DNA of 22,734 nucleotides from a virus. The notes beneath the pieces were generated by a model. That model saw nothing but the letters and a program-made list of their open reading frames with translations. It was not told where the DNA came from and searched no databases. Below, piece after piece: positions 539 to 22,646 of the stretch (position 1 is its first letter; each line of letters starts with the position of its first letter). Made by a program: the position numbers and the translations under genes. Where the stretch lies: IMG/VR virus record IMGVR_UViG_3300049043_000010, positions 1 to 22,734 of that record; one strand, 5' to 3'.

Positions 539-1200
539 ATGGGTGCAAGAGAAGGCGCAGATGGGCGTAGATTCTTTTATACGCCAGCCGCTTTTGAGAT
601 GTGGCACGAAGGCTGGATGGAAGCCGGTAGACCGCTTCCCATGTACTTTCAACACAGCTGCAGACATGATGCCCGTAGGTGAGTGGTCAAAGTTCGATAT
701 TACTGACGAAGGCATGACCGGAACCGGGAAACTTTCCCTGAATACCACGGCGGGATCGGATCTGTACACGATTATGAAGGAATCGCCGCGCATGGTCGGC
801 GGTGTCTCTGTCGGCGCGTACGCTGACGAATATCAGATGGTTGATGAGAACGGCGAACCGACAGATGATCCTGACAGCTTCTTTCAAATTATGAAGGGAG
901 GATTGGCTGAGGTTTCAATCGTGATGAATCCTAACAATCCTAAGGCTGAGATCTCAAGACTTGAATACTGGATGGGTGATAAACCAAACCCCAGGACGAT
1001 TGAAAAAGCTCTGCGTGACGCTGGGCTTTCTCGAAAGGATGCAGCCGCTGCATCCGGCTTGTTGAAGTCGATCAGTAGAGCAGCGTGATGCTGCCGTGAC
1101 AACTTCTCAACCCGCTAATCCGAGTGAGTCGGACGCAGCGGTGAAACTGCTGGAAGCGCTCCAATACCGCGAGCTGCTGAAGGCAATCGCAACCCGATAA
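539..1200 (+). CDS. HK97-family prohead protease, 5' end probably missing
   Basis: Serine protease that cleaves the capsid delta domain during prohead maturation. The protein is readable across three frames: frame 2 from about 539 to 657 (RFFYTPAAFEMWHEGW, then GRPLPMYFQHS), frame 3 to about 1080, and frame 1 to TAA at 1198. The frame changes are single-base and look like sequencing errors. The His of the MYFQHS motif and the Ser of GGVSVGAY fit the catalytic His and Ser of the family. LAEVSIVMNPNNPKA and the C-terminal NPRTIEKALRDAGLSRKDAA are typical. The repaired C-terminus ends LLKAIATR. At about 220 residues it is near family length but seems to lack the first beta strands, consistent with the fragment junction at about 535. 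The gene ends 10 bases before the major capsid gene, its usual partner. Confidence 0.87.
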
Positions 1201-1210: not shown

Positions 1211-2561
1211 ATGCTTGAAAAAGTCATTGAAAAACTGGATGCGATTGAAGCGTCTAACGCCGCAAAACTTGCTGAAACCGCTGAGGCTGTAAAGACTCAA
1301 GTCACCGAGGCTGTCCAGGCAGTTAAAGCAGAAACCGAGCAAAAACTTGCCGCTCTTGAGGCAAAGATTGCTGCTCCATCAATCATTCGTCCCATCCACA
1401 AGACTGTTCGTGGTGAGGCAAACCGTCGCTTCCGTGATGTACTGAAAGAGTACATGAAGGGTGGCAATCAGGTTGAGCGCGAAGTAAAGATCTTTGAATC
1501 GGTCGATCAGTTCGACGGGTACATTCGTGAAGCATCTGCGCTTACTGGTTCTGGTTACGATGTTGGTGGCCGTACCGCTTACGATCCCGTGTTCGCTGCT
1601 AAACGTCTTGCAAACCCGATGATGGATCTTTCCCGCATCGTTGCAACTGACGGTTCGGCTTACCAGTTCCGCGTTAAAACCGGCAACGCTGGCGCACAGT
1701 GGGGCTATACGGTTCAGAACAACGGCGCATCCACGACTGAGGCAACGTCGATCTGGCAAGTGATTCTTAAAGACTTGAACGCACAGTTCCCAATCCGTAC
1801 TGCTGCGCTTGATGATATTGATGGTCTTGAGCCCAACGTTGTTGACGACATGCTGATGGAATTCCAGCAGGCAATGGCAACCTCGATGATCCAAAACAAC
1901 GATCAATCGGGAACCGGAACCTCGGTATCGACTGGCGGCGCTGATGGTCTGCGCGGCTTAGATCAGTATGCTGGTGCAAATGCAACCTACACGGGCGGCA
2001 CAGTTTCCACAGCTTCTTTCGGAACCTCGGGAACCGCAACGAGCAACGGTCTGCATAACCTTGCAACGTATGACCAGTTAACCACCAACGCAAACACTGT
2101 CGGTGCAAATAACATCGCTTACAAAGACGTTGTTAACTTCATCTACAGCTTGCCACAGCAATACTGGACCCCGACCGCTCGCTTCATGATTAACCCAATC
2201 TTGTTGCAGGGCATCCGTGGTTTGGTTGACGATCAGAAGCGTCCCGTTTATATCGACGGTCTGAGCCGTGACGATGGCATCGTTGGCAAGTTGCTTGGCT
2301 TTGATGTTGTAGTCAACAAGTACGTTGACAATCCTTCTCAGCCGACAACCGGCGCGGCAGGCACAACGTCTTACTACCCGATGTACTTTGCTGACTTCCA
2401 GCAGTTCCATACGATCGTCATGCGTCTGAGCATGGTTCTGCGTCGCGTACGACCAGACGCTTCCAGGCTCGATCACGTTCTACGGCGAGACTCGCGCAGC
2501 CACATCTGTGCGCGATCCTAACGCTGGTGTACGTTATCGCTCGACCGGCACTGCGGCTTAA
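1211..2561 (+). CDS. Major capsid protein, HK97 fold (first copy)
   Basis: Builds the icosahedral shell. Residues 1 to about 60 form an Ala/Glu/Lys-rich coiled coil (EKLDAIEASNAAKLAETAEA), the delta or scaffolding domain that the upstream protease would remove. The shell domain starts around REASALTGSGYDVGGR and continues with WGYTVQNNG, QFPIRTAALDDIDGL and an alanine-rich A-domain segment. One frameshift near 2445 breaks the C-terminus. Removing one base restores YDQTLPGSITFYGETRAA and an end at STGTAA, giving about 449 residues, normal for a capsid protein with a delta domain. The sequence is otherwise intact, the longest clean stretch in the head module. It is directly followed by a second, shorter capsid-like gene. 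Confidence 0.92.
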
Positions 2562-2565
2562 TTCA

Positions 2566-2583
2566 AGAGGGCGAAAGCCCTCT
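2566..2583 (+). promoter_or_regulatory. GAAA-tetraloop hairpin between the two capsid genes
   Basis: A perfect 7-bp inverted repeat (AGAGGGC / GCCCTCT) encloses a GAAA loop, a stable GNRA tetraloop. It begins 5 bases after the first capsid stop. No T-run follows, so it is not a typical rho-independent terminator. It could stabilise or process the capsid mRNA, or reduce expression of the second copy. Confidence 0.6.
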
Positions 2584-2591
2584 CCCTCTAT

Positions 2592-2597
2592 GGAGAG
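2592..2597 (+). promoter_or_regulatory. Ribosome binding site of the second capsid gene
   Basis: GGAGAG lies 3 bases before the ATG at 2601, just outside the hairpin stem. It supports that start and hence the short N-terminus of the protein. Confidence 0.55.
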
Positions 2598-2600
2598 ACT

Positions 2601-3634
2601 ATGAGACAGGTAATTTTAGAAGGGCTTAAGCAGGCTCTCCACGAGGGCAAAGCCAAGGTGAACCTCGCTGAAGCCTCAGCCCTCACGGGCTCGGGCTCCG
2701 GCGTGGGTGGCCGGGTCTATAACGAAGATGTATTTGCAAGTCTGCGTTACTGGAACCCTTTCCGGGTTTACGCTAACCAGACGATGACCTCAGATTCTGA
2801 TATTCAGTTTGTTGTTAAGACTGGTAACGCCGCTAACTCTACAAACCCCTGGGGTTACACGGTAAACGCTAATCTCAGGTTCGCCAAACATCGCCACCAG
2901 CATTTGGCAGCTTCCTATGCGCGTCATCAGCGCTCAGATGCCTATTCGCGCAGCGGCGATGGATGACATTAATGGTCTAGATGCCGCGCTTGGCCGAAGA
3001 TCTTGCAATGGAATTTAGTCAGATTGAAGCCGCGTCAATGGCTATCAATAACGATCAAGCAGGCTCAGTAACAACAAGCACAGGCGCGACTAATGGCTTG
3101 CGCGGTCTCAAGATGTACGCAGGAACAGCGGGTTCTACGGCGGCCTATGGAAGCTCAGGAACTGCGATTACTAACGGTATTCATACGCTCAATACAGTCG
3201 GCTATGCTCATGCTGGCGGCATTGAATGGGAAAGCCTTGTGGATGTATGCTAACGCTCTTCCAGGCCAGTTTTGGAGAATGCCAGGAACTGCTTGGATGA
3301 TGCACCCCACAGCGCTGCAAACGCTTCGCAAATACACTCACGGCGGAAACTCCTATACGCTTGGTTGAAGCCGGCGAGGAAGGTGAAGGCCCAGGCTGTA
3401 AACATCATGGGCTGGCCGGTTATTGCTAATCCGTATTTGGACGCTCCTGCAATCGGCGCTTCTCCGATTTATCTTGCCAACTGGCCGCGATTTTTGTGGA
3501 TTGTTGACCATTCAGAAATGACGCTTCAACGCATGGAGCAGACGCAGCCTGGGACAATCACGATATACGCTGAAAAGCGTTTAGTTTCGACTGTGCGTGA
3601 TGTAACCGCTGGCGTTCGTTTGATCGGAACCTGA
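2601..3634 (+). CDS. Second major-capsid-like protein, lacking the delta domain
   Basis: Paralog of the upstream capsid protein. Shared blocks in the same order are EASALTGSG.GVGGR.Y, VVKTGNA....WGYTVNAN, TSIWQ, PIRAAAMDDINGLDA and NNDQAGSVTTSTGATNGLRG. The C-terminus has MGWPVIANPYLDAP and ERTQ-like beta strands, ending RDVTAGVRLIGT. Only about 22 residues precede the EASALTGSG block, against about 110 in the first copy, so there is no coiled-coil delta domain. Frameshifts near 2870, 3245 and 3365 split it into pieces; repaired length is about 344 residues. It may be a minor capsid subunit, a decoration or vertex protein, or simply a duplicated gene. The family assignment is sure, the role is not. 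Confidence 0.85.
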
Positions 3635-3635
3635 T

Positions 3636-4277
3636 ATGCCAAGCCAGCTACAAGGTAATTTCGGAGCGGGTTCGCGTAACCGTTCAACTGACTCGAAGGT
3701 CATTCAAAGTACCCGATCCGGTTACTCAATGGCTGACGTCTTGACGAAATCACTAACCAGCTTAATCTGTTTCAAGATAAGTCACAAGATGATTATCTTG
3801 GGCAATTGGAGTTGGCTACCCGCATGGCAATCGAAGATTATCTGGGTGTCCGATCTTCAACGTGACGTATCAGGCTTCGTATCTAATCTCGGGTTTGATG
3901 GCGGCTCCGGTTTCGCTGGATCTTCCCGAGGTCTCGCAAAATGGAGTAACGATCAACTGGGTAAAGTATTAAACGACCTAAACCCTCCGGTGCTTACGAC
4001 GATTGCGAGCTCACAGTATTACTATGATCCGACGGGAAACAAGTTGGTTCTTTTTGAAGTTCCTAATAACGTAAACACCTACATGACCGCTCCAATGCTT
4101 TGTCAGTACACACTACAAGGCAGTGTTATCGGGCAGTATCCCGTGGTCAAGCAAGCAGGGTTGATGTTGCTCACGCATTTCTACAATAACCGTTCGGCAA
4201 TCTCTGAGGCTAAGCAATATCAGCTTCCTTGGGCGATCGACCAGTTGTTGCGACCCTACCGCACTTTGGTGATGTAA
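3636..4277 (+). CDS. Head-tail connector, HK97 gp6-like
   Basis: Forms the ring that joins portal to tail. The N-terminal part is clear once the frame is shifted: DEITNQLNLFQDKSQDDYLG and LATRMAIEDYLG match the alpha-helical start of gp6-like connectors (short helices with a QDDY core). Later blocks are GVTINWVKYY, YYYDPTGNKLVLFEVP and the C-terminal KQAGLMLLTHFYNNRSAISE followed by LPWAIDQLLRPYR, which is diagnostic of the family (LLVAHWYENRE ... LLAPYR). At least three frame changes occur, near 3740, 3860 and 3975, and they cancel out. Repaired length is about 212 residues. The gene starts 1 base after the second capsid stop and ends in TAATG, overlapping the homing endonuclease start. Confidence 0.82.
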   Translation: MPSQLQGNFGAGSRNRSTDSKVIQSTRSGYSMADVLTKSLTSLICFKISHKMIILGNWSWLPAWQSKIIWVSDLQRDVSGFVSNLGFDGGSGFAGSSRGLAKWSNDQLGKVLNDLNPPVLTTIASSQYYYDPTGNKLVLFEVPNNVNTYMTAPMLCQYTLQGSVIGQYPVVKQAGLMLLTHFYNNRSAISEAKQYQLPWAIDQLLRPYRTLVM

Positions 4278-4912
4278 TGTTTTTATATTGGATTAGACTT
4301 CCGGAGCACACTGACATGTTTTAGCCAAGGAATACTGTCGGCATTGCTAATAATTTCAATCAAAGGATGTTTGCTCATCGCTCCTGTGCTAAAAAAAGCG
4401 GCAATGAAGTTATTTATAAGGTTATCCGTAAGTACGGATGGGAAAATTTAATCAAACAGATTGTCTTAATAGGAAGTAAAGATTACTGCGCCGAAATTGA
4501 AAAAAAACCCAGATTTCAACCTAAAATAGGTTGGAATTTAGCGATAGGCGGTTATTCTGGTGGATCGCATCTTAAAGGCACAAGAAAACAATCTGATGAG
4601 CATTTGAAAAAGCGATGCGCCGCTTTGGTTGGCCGGGTAAGACGGAATGCTAGGTCAAAAGCATAAAGATGAAGTAAAGGAAAAGTGCAGGAAAGCCAAT
4701 TTCAGGTAAAGTGTTATCTGATTGAAACCAAGAGAAAAATATCTGAGAAGAATTTCAGAAGATTGAAATAAATGGAGTTATTTACCCAAGCTGGAAATCG
4801 GCTAGCAAACAGCTTCATATACCAACAGGGTTCCTTGGCTTATCTTTTGGCTTCGACAAAAAGATCCGGCGGATCGCTTGCGATCAAAAAAACAATGTCG
4901 CTGGTGATGTGA
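4277..4912 (+). CDS. GIY-YIG homing endonuclease with NUMOD-type DNA-binding repeats
   Basis: Selfish DNA endonuclease. The repaired N-terminus begins MFLYWIRLPEHTDMFSQGY, giving the GIY-like YWI and YIG-like GYCG elements. Then come the catalytic Arg/His element NQRMFAH, the helix IRKYGWENLIKQIVLIG, the catalytic Glu segment CAEIEKK, and KIGWNLAIGG. NUMOD3-like repeats follow (LGQKHKDEVKEKCRKA, then ETKRKISEKNF), and a C-terminal NUMOD1-like helix (EINGVIYPSWKSASKQLHIP). About 210 residues. Three single-base insertions occur between 4315 and 4345, and further frameshifts near 4640, 4690 and 4765. The gene sits between connector and head closure, sharing TAATG with the first and TGATG with the second, so it is read as part of the late operon. 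Free-standing endonucleases like this spread between related phages. Confidence 0.86.
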
Positions 4913-10508: not shown

Positions 10509-11101
10509 ACAACATAGCTCCCGGTACAAAATACAAACAATATTCGGTATGCGGATTTTGTAAGAATAACGAGCGCTAGCGGCACTTACAGATTAGCGAC
10601 TACTGCTTCGGCTATCACCGTCCCGGCAGTAGAATGCTCAACCGTTTTCTGCGTTGGGTTTGCTGGTAAGGGTTGGAGAGGCTACGAGAGACATCAAAAG
10701 CACTGCTAACGAAACGACATTCACTGTAGTCGGCATTGACACAGCAATGCTTGGTCTTGTTCTTGGTCAGCAGATCAAAGGCTCCGCAGATTGAAGCCTG
10801 GAAAGGCTTTTTTGATACAGACGGAAACCTAATTACAGGTGGCGGCTCCGGTGGTTTATATCAGTTCTTTAATGGGTACATTTCTTCCTTTACCATTTCT
10901 GAACAATGGATGGAAGAAGTAAGAGAGTTTGTAGGCATTATTTCAATGTCTGCGTCTTCAATTCAACTCATTTTGCAAAATCGCGTAGCTGGTAGATATA
11001 CCAACAACAACTCTTGGCAATTTTTTAACCCAACAGATCCAAGCATGAACAGAGTTCCGTTCATTTCAACAATCAATTATCAATTTGGCAAAACGGAATG
11101 A
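10505..11101 (+). CDS. Minor tail / baseplate hub-like protein (gpL-type position)
   Basis: Repaired N-terminus reads IRYADFVRITSASGTYRLAT then TASAITVPAVECS. After frame changes near 10540, 10660 and 10780 it continues DIKSTANETTFTVVGIDTAM, LGLVLGQQIKG and IEAWKGFFDTDGNLITGGGS. The intact C-terminal half has GYISSFTISEQWMEEVREFV and GRYTNNNSWQFFNPTDPSMN. About 197 residues. The pattern 'xANETxFTVVGIDTxMLG ... IEAWKGFFD.DGNLI ... LYQFFNGYI' is shared with gpL/DUF2163-like hub proteins that follow the distal tail protein. ATGA overlaps couple it to both neighbours. Confidence 0.62.
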
Positions 11102-11531
11102 TACGGATGCCAATCAGTTTGATAAAAAAGACATCATTGATATGTGCGTAGAGTTTCGAGACTCTGCTGATTTTGATGAAATCTATGCTACGACAAATAC
11201 TGAAAACGTAAATCGGCTTTTAGATCATATTTTTGCTGGCGCAGGCCGTATTTTTTATGAGCCGCAAAAAGGTTTTTTAATGTGTTTTATATCCCCTTCT
11301 ATCTGGGATCATGAAATATTGGTGCTAAACGAATTGGCTTGGTATGTAAAACCCAAGTATAGAAAAACGACGTTAGGTTATAGGTTGTTTAAAAACTATT
11401 TGGATTATGGCAATCAACTAAAGAAAGACGGAAGAATAAAGTATTTCACAATGACAAAATTAGATGTAAGCCCTGATTTTGATTACAAGCGCTACGGGTT
11501 TCGAGCCAAGGACATCAACTGGATTCAATGA
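11098..11531 (+). CDS. GNAT-fold N-acetyltransferase in the tail module
   Basis: Predicted acyl-CoA-dependent acetyltransferase; substrate unknown. The preferred start is the ATG at 11098, in an ATGA overlap. It needs one missing base near 11112 to give MIRMANQFDKKDIIDMCVEF; otherwise a TTG at 11085 opens the frame. GNAT features are the helix after strand 1 (DIIDMCVEFRDSADFDE), strand LNELAWYVKPKYRKTTLGYR (beta 4 plus the pyrophosphate-binding turn, where R/Q-x-x-G-x-G/A is relaxed to RKTTLGYRL), and the late strand/helix KLDVSPDFDYKRYGF, where YKRYGF is the classical GNAT C-terminal motif. About 145 residues. Similar genes occur in tail operons of other phages, and one may modify a host surface or virion component. 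Confidence 0.75.
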
Positions 11532-15569: not shown

Positions 15570-16052
15570 ATGGCGATTTTTAGCAAAAATACGCTGACGC
15601 AAGTTAGCGGATTTGATAATCAAATCATTGCTGGTGAGTTGGTTTACAACCAAAAAACTTACTGGAATATTACGCTCAATAATGCAGATGGAACGCCAAG
15701 GAATTTAACCGGCGCTACCATTACAAGCCAAATTATCAGACGGCAGCTTTCAAACGTCCGAGATTCTCGATATGGGCTGACGTTTGACATAGCCGATTAC
15801 TCTCCTCCTCCTTCTCCTGTAAGCCTCACGATTGCGAATCAGAATCTTGCTGGCGGATCGTTTACGCTGGTCATAGATGAATCAGCGTGGTCTGTTCTTT
15901 CCACAGACACAGAGCTCGACATCAACGCTGCCAATCCCGTGGGATTTTCAGGAAACATAAAAGTAGCCATCCCTGCAAGCGGATCAACTCCGGCTCAAGA
16001 CATGATTATTTTCTTGCTCTTTCTGATCAGGTCTGACGGGGTGACAGATTGA
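15570..16052 (+). CDS. Small baseplate/fibre-adaptor-like protein, N-terminal BppU-like
   Basis: Intact 160-residue protein with GGAG upstream. It contains NQKTYWNITLNNADGTPRNL and TGATITSQIIRRQL, which matches the layout of phage proteins that begin with an Ig-like domain of the BppU N-terminal kind (YxxxxWxLxxxxGxPxDLTGATVxxxxR). Then follow a SLTIANQNLAGGSFTLVIDE strand pair and DMIIFLLFLIRSDGVTD at the end. These proteins are adaptors for tail fibres or measured constituents of the baseplate. It overlaps the collagen-like fibre gene by 4 bases. Family assignment is by pattern; function is inferred. Confidence 0.6.
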   Translation: MAIFSKNTLTQVSGFDNQIIAGELVYNQKTYWNITLNNADGTPRNLTGATITSQIIRRQLSNVRDSRYGLTFDIADYSPPPSPVSLTIANQNLAGGSFTLVIDESAWSVLSTDTELDINAANPVGFSGNIKVAIPASGSTPAQDMIIFLLFLIRSDGVTD

Positions 16053-17965
16053 GCGACGTTAACTTAGTTGTCACATCTGGCAACCAGATTGCCCTCACGA
16101 TAGATCAAGGGATTATCGGCCCCACGGGACCCTACGGGCCTACTGGACCGGCAGGCGAGGGAATCGTTCTTAAGGGCGCGGTTGCAAACGTCGGAGATCT
16201 TCCTTCATCTGGAAACAATCCGGGCGATGCTTATATTGTCTCGTCCAACGGTCATTTGTAGGTGTGGAGCGGATCTGCGTGGGTAGACGCGGGACAATTC
16301 GTTGGACCGACGGGCCCCACCGGAGCCTCTGGTTTATCCATTACCGGCCCCACCGGGGCATCAGGCCCGACCGGAGCCGCTTCAACCGTACCGGGACCGA
16401 CGGGCCCCACGGGCTTGTCCATAACGGGTCCCACCGGAGCGGCATCAACCGTTCCGGCCCAACGGGCCCGCAAGGCGTCACAGGGCCTACGGGCGAGCAG
16501 GGCCCGACCGGAGCAGCTTCTACGGTTCCCGGCCCGACCGGACCGCAGGGCTTGTCGATTACGGGTCCGACCGGGTGACGGGCCACAGGCCCAGCGGGTG
16601 GTGGTGGTAGTGAATTACGGTCAAAGATGAAGGTACGCCGTTAACAACAAACGTTACTTCTTTTGACTTTGTCGGAACTGGTGTTACGGCGACAGCAGTG
16701 GGTGATGCTGTAACGGTCAACGTCTCCGCGGGTGCTCGGCCCGACCGGGCCCGACGGGCGCTGGCGGCGCTCTCGGTTACTGGGGTTCTTTCGAACTCCG
16801 ACACAACCCAAACGATTGCATCCACGACAACCGCTTATGCGATCACGCTTAATAATACCGACCCCAATAGTTCTGGCGTAAGTATTGTTTCCGGCTCAAG
16901 ATTAACGTTCGCTTATGCGGGTGTTTACAACATTCAGTTTTCGGCGCAAATAGATAGAACGTCGGGTTCGGGAACGGATGCGATTGAAATCTGGTTTGCA
17001 AAGAACGGCACGAATATTTCCGAGTCATCGACAAAAGTAACGATCACTGGAAGTGCGTCGCAAGCGAAAGAAGTGGCTGCGTGGAATTACATGCTGCAAG
17101 TCGCGGCAAATGATTATGTCGAGTTGTACTGGCAGGCCACAAACTAAACATCGCTCTTCAGCCTGAGCCGGGCAAGCGCCCTGTCCGTCCTGCTGTGCCT
17201 TCGGCTCATCCTGAACGGCGCAACAAGTGATGTTTACGCAGCTCGGACCCACCGGCAGTCAGGGAGCCACCGGCCCGCAAGGCGTGACCGGCCCCACTGG
17301 GAGTGCTTCCACGGTTCCCGGACCCGACGGGCCCGACGGGCGCGACCGGACCGACGGGGCGGCTTCGACCGTACCCGGACCTACCTGGATAGCGGGACCG
17401 ACCGGGCCGGCAGGGCGATGTTGGACCCACCGGCAGTCAAGGCCCCACGGGTGCGGCTTCTACTGTGGCGGGGCCGACGGGCCCGACGGGGCCCGGCTGG
17501 CGGGGGGATCTGAATATTCCGGTGTCAGTTGAAGGCACTCAGTATTACCGCTGCGGTTTCGTCATTTAAGCTTTAGAGGCTGAGGTGTAAACCGCTACCG
17601 CGGTTGGCAATGCGGTAACTGTCAATGTTCCGGGTGGTAGCGGATTCGGGCGGTTCGATCTGGACAGCTTCAATACAACAACGCCGGATCTTTTGGCGGC
17701 CTAGCGGATTTAACGTGGGACGAAACATGGGGCTTGCGTGTTCGGTCTGGTTACGATGTTAATTTTTACAACTTAAGTAATAGTAATTTTGTCGGCGTAA
17801 GAGCGTACATCGTCACTTGCAACAGATTACGAACTAGTCCTTCCTACAACAGCCGGTTCTAATGGTCAGGTTCTTACAACGAACGGAAGCGGCGTTACAA
17901 GTTGGACAAGTGTTTCTGGCGGTACTGGCATGAAGGCACTTACAGCGGCAATGATCTGGGGGTAG
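16049..17965 (+). CDS. Collagen-like tail fibre with Gly-Pro-Thr repeats
   Basis: Starts TTG overlapping the upstream stop: MSDVNLVVTSGNQIALTIDQ. The sequence GPTGPYGPTGPAG begins the collagen-like part. After a spacer (DAYIVSSNGHL, TAG at 16259, then VWSGSAWVDAGQF; the TAG reads best as a miscalled Tyr codon) comes a long GPTG / GPTGAASTVPGPTG array to about 16590. Next is TVKDEGTPLTTNVTSFDF, then a TNF/C1q-like globular domain (GVYNIQFSAQIDRTSGSGTD, AWNYMLQVAANDYVELYWQA). A second collagen array runs from 17240 to 17510. A second copy of the small module (AVGNAVTVNVPGG) and a shaft ending (YELVLPTTAGSNGQVLTTNG) follow. Roughly 635 residues, heavily frameshifted in the GC-rich repeats. Confidence 0.8.
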
Positions 17966-20364: not shown

Positions 20365-20958
20365 CTTATTCCCCATCCCTATTGGCTTTGCTGAACTAGG
20401 TCGCCCCTTGTCAGATGAGGAGTTGTCTTCTTCATCCGTGAGTTACAGACAGACACATGGGCAATACGACAAGCACGAACAAGCTTTGTCTTGCGCGATC
20501 CAGCCCTGACATCATTACGTTCATTCATTGAAAGATTCAGTCTCCGAATACTTCAAATCCACGGTCAATCCCAAAGCACGAATGTAGGTTGGAAGAGCTG
20601 ACGCAAAGCTGGTGCAACGACTCAGATCTAAGGCCAGTACCAACCACAAAACACGCTCATCCTAACAGTTACATATCAGGTGTGTTCTATGCGGAGACCA
20701 ACCCTGATGACAGAATCTATTTTTACAAAGACGGTTGGCAGCAGATTAAATTCCCGCCCGACCAGTGGAATCCATATAACTCAGAGTCATGGTGGTTCGA
20801 GGCGTATGCAGGCAGGCTGATTCTCTTTCCTTCGTCACTCACGCACATGGTTCCAGAGGTCAAGGGCGAGGACACGAATATCATTATCGTTTAACACCTT
20901 CCCTGTCGGTGTCGTCGGGGAAGAGATGGACTTAACCGGACTAAAGTTGGAGGCTTAG
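20351..20958 (+). CDS. 2OG-Fe(II) oxygenase, TIGR02466-type
   Basis: Predicted 2-oxoglutarate- and iron-dependent hydroxylase; substrate unknown. The start is GTG at 20351 (MQLHNLFPIPIGFAELGRPL); a frame change lies between about 20420 and 20560. Family core: ELTQSWCND, KHAHPNSYISGVFYAETNPD (first metal ligand in HAHPNS), RIYFYKDGWQQIKFP, GRLILFPSSLTHMVPEVKGE (second metal His in LTHMV, with the FPSxxxH motif). The C-terminus, VSFNTFPVGVVGEEM, needs about five missing bases near 20893. The expected 2OG-binding Arg after the second His is not clear; NIIIV occupies the place where RIxLSFN is usual, possibly a sequencing error. About 200 residues, normal for the family. It lies just after the fibre genes. 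Confidence 0.8.
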
Positions 20959-21333: not shown

Positions 21334-22357
21334 CACTAAAGATTTGCGTTTACGCAATCTCAAAAAACTGAAAGAGCAATTTGTAAAAAAGATTTTGTCG
21401 TACTCAGCGAAAGATGCTGACCTTATTTTGATAGCCGACACAGGCTCTACAGCAACACTGCAAGCCTAGCCAGAGAATGTGGCGCTACGGTCTACGACAT
21501 ATCGGTTAAGCCGTGGCGTTTTGATATGGCGCGAGATACGGCACTATGTTTGATCCCCTGAATTACGATGTTGTATCTCTCTAGATCTCGACGAGGTTTA
21601 GAACCCGGATGGCGCGAGGTAAGAGAAAGCGTCTGGAAGCCCGAAAACGACCGATTGAGATACAAGTTCGATTGGGGCATAAACATTCTTTTCTTTTATG
21701 AAAAGATCCACCATCGTCAGGGATACCACTGGCACTATCCGGTTCACGAGTATCCCGAGGCCAGATCACAGGACAAAAGAAGTCTATGCCCAAACAGACA
21801 AGCTCTTATAAACCTCACCATCCTGATCCCACAAAGTCGAGAGGGCAGCACCAGACTTTGAGAATGGCTGTTAAAGAATACTGAAATGCTGAGAAACGCT
21901 TTTTACTTTGCTAGAGTTAATGTTTTACCGTCTCTGGATGAGGCTATAGAGGCTCTAAACACTTATTTGAATATGCCGAAGCAACGTGGCCAAATGAGCG
22001 GTGTTATGCGATGAGATTGCTAGAAGGCCTACGACCACAAGCAAAACCCTTGGAAGCCTTAAACGGGACAGAATGGCCATAGCTTAAAGCGCCCGGAGAG
22101 CCTTGGGGTGGATGCGGCAATGTCGTATTACATGAAATCAATGTGGAAGCAAATGTTCTTCACTACAATGGCGCTAGAGATTAAAGATAAGCAATTGGTA
22201 TATACCTGCGACCCTGAAGTATGGGGGTATAAGCCTTATACTTGGCAGCAATTGCTGCTTATAATCTTGGGCTAAAAGACGAAGCGATACGATACGGGCA
22301 AGCGGCGGTAGATTTATCGCCAAATGATGAACGACTCGCTAGGAATCTTGAATATGA
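21330..22357 (+). CDS. Glycosyltransferase (GT2-like) with C-terminal TPR-like region
   Basis: Predicted GT-A fold sugar transferase. The start MTLKICVYAISKNEEQFVKR (one base repaired) is the nucleotide-sugar binding strand. DADLILIADTGSTD is the next conserved block. A DxD-type metal site is visible as DLDEV followed by EPGWRE around 21590. Then NDRLRYKFDWG, ILFFYEKIHHRQGYHWHYPV, and an HEYP motif. The C-terminal half has TPR-like helices: YAMRLLGKAYDHK, MSYYMKSMWKQMF, IAAYNLGLKDEAIRYGQAAV, DLSPNDERLARNLEY. About 340 residues. Proteins with this layout are common in tailed phages next to fibre genes and may glycosylate virion or host-surface molecules. Many frameshifts; the end is set by an ATGA overlap and is approximate. 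Confidence 0.8.
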
Positions 22358-22646
22358 TGGGACTGAAACGCCGCTTAACATTGCTTTCGGTGTTCCTCGC
22401 TGCATTCGGTTGGTTCTTCCGTGTGGTTTGGGAGGTCTAGCAAGAACTACAGCGTGATCTTAGACTAGAAAAAGGTTTGCCTCACGCTTATGTTTTAAAG
22501 CCGGATTACGAGAAAGACACCAGCGACATAAAAAACATGCTTGCTAAGATTTTTGACAACCACAATCACAACAACAAAGTGATGGATGACAAGCCCACGA
22601 AATTGCGTTATTAAAAGCCCAAGCGGGAATTAAACTCGAAGAGTGA
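22354..22646 (+). CDS. Small single-pass membrane protein, possible lysis-module protein
   Basis: Reads MMGLKRRLTLLSVFLAAFGW and FFRVVWEV, one N-terminal transmembrane segment (about residues 7-25) after a positively charged start. A TAG at 22437 is probably a miscalled codon, as the frame continues QELQRDLRLEKGLPHAYVLK then DIKNMLAKIFDNHNHNNKVM. One frame correction near 22600 gives AHEIALLKAQAGIKLEE to TGA. About 97 residues. An inner-membrane anchor with a helical soluble tail at the end of a structural operon fits an i-spanin-like or holin-like protein, but no family signature was seen. Confidence 0.5.

Follow-up and report, generated by a model that had tools for sequence, protein, structure and literature searches.

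The gene that follows the major capsid gene in the phage DNA analysed here probably encodes another functional protein of the shell, one that is dedicated to the pentamers (vertices) and goes back to an old duplication of the major capsid gene. We call the two genes and their products MCP1 and MCP2. The window, i.e. the whole stretch of DNA that was analysed, is a complete IMG/VR record of 22,734 bases and contains a siphovirus-like head and tail module: the end of a prohead protease gene, two capsid genes, a head-tail adaptor, and neck and tail genes. The features on which the argument depends are the following.

543..1088, plus strand: prohead (head maturation) protease, C-terminal part, Peptidase_S78 family (Pfam PF04586, E 3e-8)
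1211..2561, plus strand: MCP1, major capsid protein with N-terminal delta (scaffold) domain (PF05065, E 2e-18)
1211..1528, plus strand: MCP1 delta domain, residues 1-106, up to the invariant E107 of EASALTGSG
2566..2583, plus strand: terminator-like hairpin AGAGGGC-GAAA-GCCCTCT between MCP1 and MCP2
2592..2597, plus strand: Shine-Dalgarno-like GGAGAG for MCP2 (from the sequence; conserved in relatives of the window's clade)
2601..3634, plus strand: MCP2, second capsid protein of HK97 fold, most of the delta domain missing (its pieces match MCP1)
2601..2669, plus strand: residual leader of MCP2, 23 residues in the window's clade, homologous to the end of the MCP1 delta region
3636..4277, plus strand: head-tail adaptor, the next gene 3' of MCP2 (phrog_40, head-tail adaptor Ad1, E 7e-7)

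The head module is confirmed by the head-tail adaptor that adjoins MCP2 downstream. A cultured freshwater relative, phage P19250A (KX815270; genome 38,749 bases), infects a Methylophilaceae bacterium of the LD28 group, and a full-length protease gene is found there at the same position (L147:3787-4596; PF04586 E 4e-9, phrog_3244 E 2e-12). The OM43 phage Venkman was reported to be syntenic to P19250A (PMC8163748). The tandem pair is present in P19250A in the order protease-MCP1-MCP2, with MCP1 orthologs 58% and MCP2 orthologs 55% identical; gene 0005 is the MCP and gene 0006 is MCP2, but the latter is annotated only as 'hypothetical protein', and the openly accessible papers propose no function for it.

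Reading frames are interrupted across the entire window, including those of MCP1, MCP2, the protease and the tail genes. Aligned over 6.35 kb to the longest-aligning relative (L026), the window shows 45 gap openings, which are distributed along the entire aligned part, whereas relatives compared with one another mostly show 5-19, and at most 60, per about 12 kb. Since the rate in the window is far above the rate between relatives, the frame breaks are best read as sequencing errors (indels). Positions 1-540 have no similarity to the related loci that were fetched, while the bases that follow align to the relatives' protease; this segment also gave no match in phage and plasmid collections, and it is possibly a chimeric or foreign read end. 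Several other elements lie downstream of the capsid genes: immediately past the adaptor gene in the head-tail module, an inserted homing endonuclease fragment at 4367-4666 (phrog_314, E 2e-8); an acetyltransferase-like gene at 11085-11531 (phrog_1249, E 8e-7) in the tail module, preceding a gene with similarity to tail fibre J; tail-fibre-like frames at 16049-17500 with collagen-like GPTGPTG repeats, interrupted by frame shifts; and, 3' of the tail genes, a putative 2OG-Fe(II) oxygenase at 20589-20894 (PF13759, E 4e-13) and a weak TPR-like piece at 22242-22457.

The MCP1 frame is open from position 1211 on, as an earlier note on this DNA had it, but the reading frame proposed there (1211-2521, 436 aa) has the wrong C-terminus: a frame break near 2440 shifts the last ~39 codons, and the true stop is at 2559-2561. 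MCP2 starts with an ATG at 2601, 39 nt past the MCP1 stop, and runs to 3634 over several frame breaks. The intact proteins of relatives have 449 aa (MCP1) and 342 aa (MCP2). In one of these relatives (L006) an intact MCP1 of 449 aa is followed 38 nt on by an intact MCP2 of 342 aa, and residues 1-410 of its MCP1 are identical to those of the window.

The earlier note was correct in seeing common capsid blocks in the two adjacent genes. Intact MCP1 and MCP2 of relatives align over 348 columns with 41% identity (E 6e-75), a profile-profile comparison gives a probability of 100 (E 5e-82), and within one genome the identity is 37-41%. Both proteins belong to the HK97-type MCP family according to PF05065 and TIGR01554 (major_cap_HK97), intact MCP1 with 79.6 and 92.5 bits and MCP2 with 75.6 and 69.6 bits, respectively, at curated cut-offs of 24.2 and 27.5. 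The TIGR01554 match starts at model position 87 in MCP2 as opposed to position 10 in MCP1, both extending to 381, so that MCP2 is without the N-terminal part. An AlphaFold2 model of MCP2 is of moderate quality (pLDDT 63, pTM 0.69) and finds 6tb9 as its best match in the PDB (E 3.6e-11), followed by HK97 proheads and other HK97-fold shells; MCP2 is thus predicted to have the HK97 fold. The MCP1 model (pLDDT 40) is poor except for the delta helix and parts of the C-terminal half.

The difference in length is found at the N-terminus, where 103-112 residues precede the invariant E of EASALTGSG in MCP1 and 22-41 in MCP2; roughly the first 80 residues of MCP1 are absent from MCP2. This bears out the earlier claim that the second copy is without the long coiled-coil scaffold part. 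The delta region of the MCP1 model consists of helices 2-54 and 59-84 followed by a strand, at low overall confidence, and only MCP1 combines a long N-terminal delta domain with the linked S78 protease upstream. The earlier note also described MCP2 as a pre-matured subunit. This is no more than partly right, since MCP2 has its own leader of 22-41 residues and does not start exactly at the mature end. The leader (ILxGIKxALxxGEATVNL) corresponds by homology to the final stretch of the MCP1 delta region (in BLASTP of the P19250A pair the alignment begins at MCP2 residue 4 and MCP1 residue 66), meaning that the long coiled coil was lost from MCP2 and not the whole pre-cleavage segment. The leader may itself be processed by the protease, because the residue before the invariant E is K or R in 34 out of 48 MCP2 clusters; in the window's own clade it is A. 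The idea that K/R before E107 is a cleavage site kept in MCP1 and lost in MCP2 was rejected, as the corresponding figure for MCP1 is 37 out of 48. In some distant relatives (L333-L338, L332 and L307) the tblastn match to MCP2 spans ~1.23 kb as compared to the usual ~1.03 kb, which suggests an extra segment in these proteins.

The pair is kept throughout the family. Five scans of viral contigs and one scan of genomes, with the best 80 loci taken per scan, gave 305 loci with the two genes in the same order and 3 further loci in which the pair carries frame breaks of its own; the genome scan contributed two loci, both with the pair. One copy alone was seen at 25 loci, all of them cut by the contig end, and among the best 80 loci per scan none had room for both genes and lacked MCP1 or MCP2. 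Removal of duplicates left 181 distinct segments with both genes intact, falling into 48 clusters below 90% identity, and neither copy is lost in any of the clusters. The tandem arrangement, which the earlier note proposed to look for in related phages, is therefore present in every relative that could be checked. It is not an effect of the search, since presence of MCP2 was no criterion in the MCP1 scan, nor that of MCP1 in the MCP2 scans; beyond the best 80 loci per scan there could be distant relatives with a single copy. Two contigs of this lineage (L181 and L182) are binned into Nitrosotalea and Alphaproteobacteria genomes, a placement that is likely due to mis-binning.

In trees of 91 pairs and of the 48 clusters MCP1 and MCP2 are each monophyletic, the MCP2 clade having a support of 1.0. 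Two separate clades indicate one old duplication that predates the sampled family, and the monophyly of both indicates that their roles had diverged by the time the family radiated. The median dN/dS is 0.05 for MCP2 and 0.06 for MCP1; MCP2 is under strong purifying selection, and both proteins are therefore in use.

The changes that separate the paralogs are unevenly distributed. The MCP1 and MCP2 consensus sequences agree best in the N-arm, at 75% identity; the spine/P part has 59%, the A-domain half 42-49% and the E-loop 40%. The MCP1 core columns that are missing in MCP2, 26 in number, without exception fall in the inferred A-domain half, and none is found among the 178 columns of the N-arm, E-loop and P-domain (the short C-terminal tail was left aside in this count, and the domain borders were assigned by hand from homology to HK97). 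In proteins of the HK97 fold it is the A domain that points towards the five- or six-fold axis, while the P domain and the N-arm make contacts between capsomers. Inter-capsomer surfaces that are kept together with an axis surface that is changed would be in keeping with a subunit adapted to a different capsomer symmetry; the divergence of the E-loop fits this reading less specifically.

A second point concerns the dose of MCP2. A hairpin is present in 174 of the 181 gaps between MCP1 and MCP2, with a T tract in 81, while shuffled gaps gave 25 out of 905 and no T tract; GC-rich hairpins in the stretches upstream of MCP1 number 16 out of 180. Hairpin sequences are unrelated between clades. The stem in the window (2566-2572 / 2577-2583) has a z-score of -3.8 and was reached in none of 200 shuffles. 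Because a terminator-like hairpin separates the genes so regularly, we suggest that MCP2 may be produced in a smaller dose than MCP1. The hairpin is what would be expected if MCP2 were transcribed at a lower level by read-through, which is no proof that it is. A second possible stem, 2580-2585 / 2592-2597 (CTCTCC with GGAGAG), would cover the ribosome site of MCP2 and compete with the hairpin. We do not claim a two-stem switch over this site, since its pairing bases are kept in the window's clade only and the arrangement is unclear in P19250A and in divergent members.

Several features favour a vertex subunit: the pair is always kept, MCP2 is under purifying selection, the two clades are old and separate, a hairpin lies between the genes and the core deletions are in the A-domain half. 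T4 gp24 and the Ccm protein of SaPIbov5 are precedents with the same anatomy. On the other side, the E-loop has diverged as much as the A domain, the structure models are weak with borders assigned by hand, and the hairpin of the window's clade is without a T tract, and phage late transcription may ignore terminators. Moreover, phages of HK97 size normally build their pentamers from the same MCP (PMC13185644).

A mixed shell is the strongest of the rivals: MCP1 and MCP2 would assemble together into hexamers and pentamers with no fixed place for either, or as heterodimers, in the manner of two-component Family 2B encapsulins. Two-component HK97-fold shells with variable composition and irregular tiling do exist (PMC12407261), and the N-arm and spine residues that contact neighbours are kept in MCP2. 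We nevertheless regard this arrangement as unlikely, as the hairpin points to unequal doses, the core deletions are concentrated in the domain inferred to face the axis and a 38 kb genome requires a shell of uniform size. It is somewhat less likely still that MCP2 is present in a few copies and not in all pentamers, either as a minor shell protein of the portal vertex or as a subunit that controls size or maturation. Attachment of T4 gp24 at the vertices has been suggested to trigger the protease (PMC9958956) and the pentamer paralog of SaPIbov5 sets the shape of the capsid (PMC8569155), but no feature specific for portal contact was found in MCP2, and such a role would in part overlap with that of a vertex protein.

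We consider it improbable that MCP2 has left the shell and now serves, e.g., as a decoration protein, an internal protein or a protein outside the virion. Encapsulins show that the HK97 fold has been put to other uses outside phages; however, all main elements of the fold are kept in MCP2, distant orthologs retain 55-60% identity, and its gene is located between those of the MCP and the head-tail adaptor. A decaying duplicate, the pseudogene alternative raised in the earlier note, is hardly credible. The MCP2 frame of the window is indeed broken several times and the breaks could be taken as genuine, but the gene is intact in all 181 distinct segments at a dN/dS of 0.05, and the gap openings extend over the whole aligned window, at a rate far above that between relatives. 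MCP1, the protease and the tail genes are broken too. For the family as a whole the intact MCP2 orthologs refute decay.

For the vertex subunit, which we prefer, the following mechanism can be proposed. Equipped with the delta domain, MCP1 would form the hexamers and would also nucleate the procapsid and hold it together. MCP2, having no coiled-coil scaffold, would be unable to start a shell alone and would be recruited to the five-fold corners through the conserved N-arm and P-domain contacts with neighbouring MCP1, its dose being lowered by the terminator-like hairpin. If the head is T=7, as a genome of ~38 kb suggests (the HK97 and P22 class, PMC13185644), about 55 copies of MCP2 and 360 copies of MCP1 would be expected. 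The presence of MCP2 in the virion, its lower dose, its vertex position and the T number are all what we infer from the above. As to the broader statement, i.e. that the HK97-type head of a whole lineage of aquatic siphophages with ~38 kb genomes is made of two paralogs, both of them obligatory, with MCP1 providing scaffold and hexamers and MCP2 pentamers that ride on the MCP1 scaffold, and with the dose set by a leaky terminator, we would put the chances at about even.

It is useful to compare MCP1 and MCP2 to known shells built of two proteins. T4 gp24 has a leader of 10 residues compared to 65 in gp23, forms only pentamers and originated by gene duplication (PMC9958956, PMC5694885). MCP2 is likewise a duplicated capsid paralog with a shortened leader, and its position would be at the vertices. 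In other respects the systems differ: T4 has a genome of ~145-170 kb, a prolate head, a separate scaffold core and paralogs that are ~20% identical, as opposed to a genome of ~38 kb, a scaffold that is the delta domain of MCP1 and paralogs that are ~41% identical. MCP2 matches HK97-type families only and not the T4 gp23/gp24 family, so it may work like gp24 without being a gp24. In SaPIbov5, Ccm has a delta domain of 87 residues compared to 128 in the phi12 CP, occupies only pentamers while CP is in the hexamers, and cannot assemble alone (PMC8569155). Ccm is also an HK97-like capsid homolog with a shorter delta domain; it is, however, encoded by a satellite that reshapes the head of its helper and is 24% identical to phi12 CP, whereas MCP1 and MCP2 are both genes of the phage itself, in tandem and always kept. 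What MCP2 shares with gp24 and Ccm is that it is an MCP paralog with a shortened leader in the same particle system. Family 2B encapsulins also have two HK97-fold proteins per shell (PMC12407261), but these are cellular compartments of variable composition and irregular tiling that have no portal, protease or delta domain. The closest solved relative by both sequence and fold is the MCP of the Rhodobacter capsulatus gene transfer agent (6tb9, 6tba), for which one MCP sequence was found per solved capsid entry.

The earlier note was right that HK97-like phages normally use one capsid gene, yet shells of two proteins are known (T4 gp23/gp24; phi12 CP with Ccm). A 2026 review attributes the single coat gene of ~40 kb phages to genome economy and treats T4 as a rare exception (PMC13185644), and in the openly accessible literature we found no small tailed phage for which two MCP genes or MCP paralogs are reported. 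The principle is known from T4 and from a satellite; what is new is its occurrence in a small phage, in tandem, with a delta-type scaffold in one copy only and with retention throughout the lineage. MCP2 is probably a protein of the shell corners only, a role that has been proven in few phages and is unexpected at this small size.

A widespread lineage of the ~40 kb class, with a cultured representative, always retains a second capsid paralog that has no scaffold. This lineage is a natural test of the purpose that the delta domain serves in pentamers and in hexamers, and of how quasi-equivalence may be given up through gene duplication. If the proposed roles are true, the gp23/gp24 principle would have arisen independently in a small phage. 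A gene now labelled hypothetical is probably a head protein in many genomes of aquatic phages.
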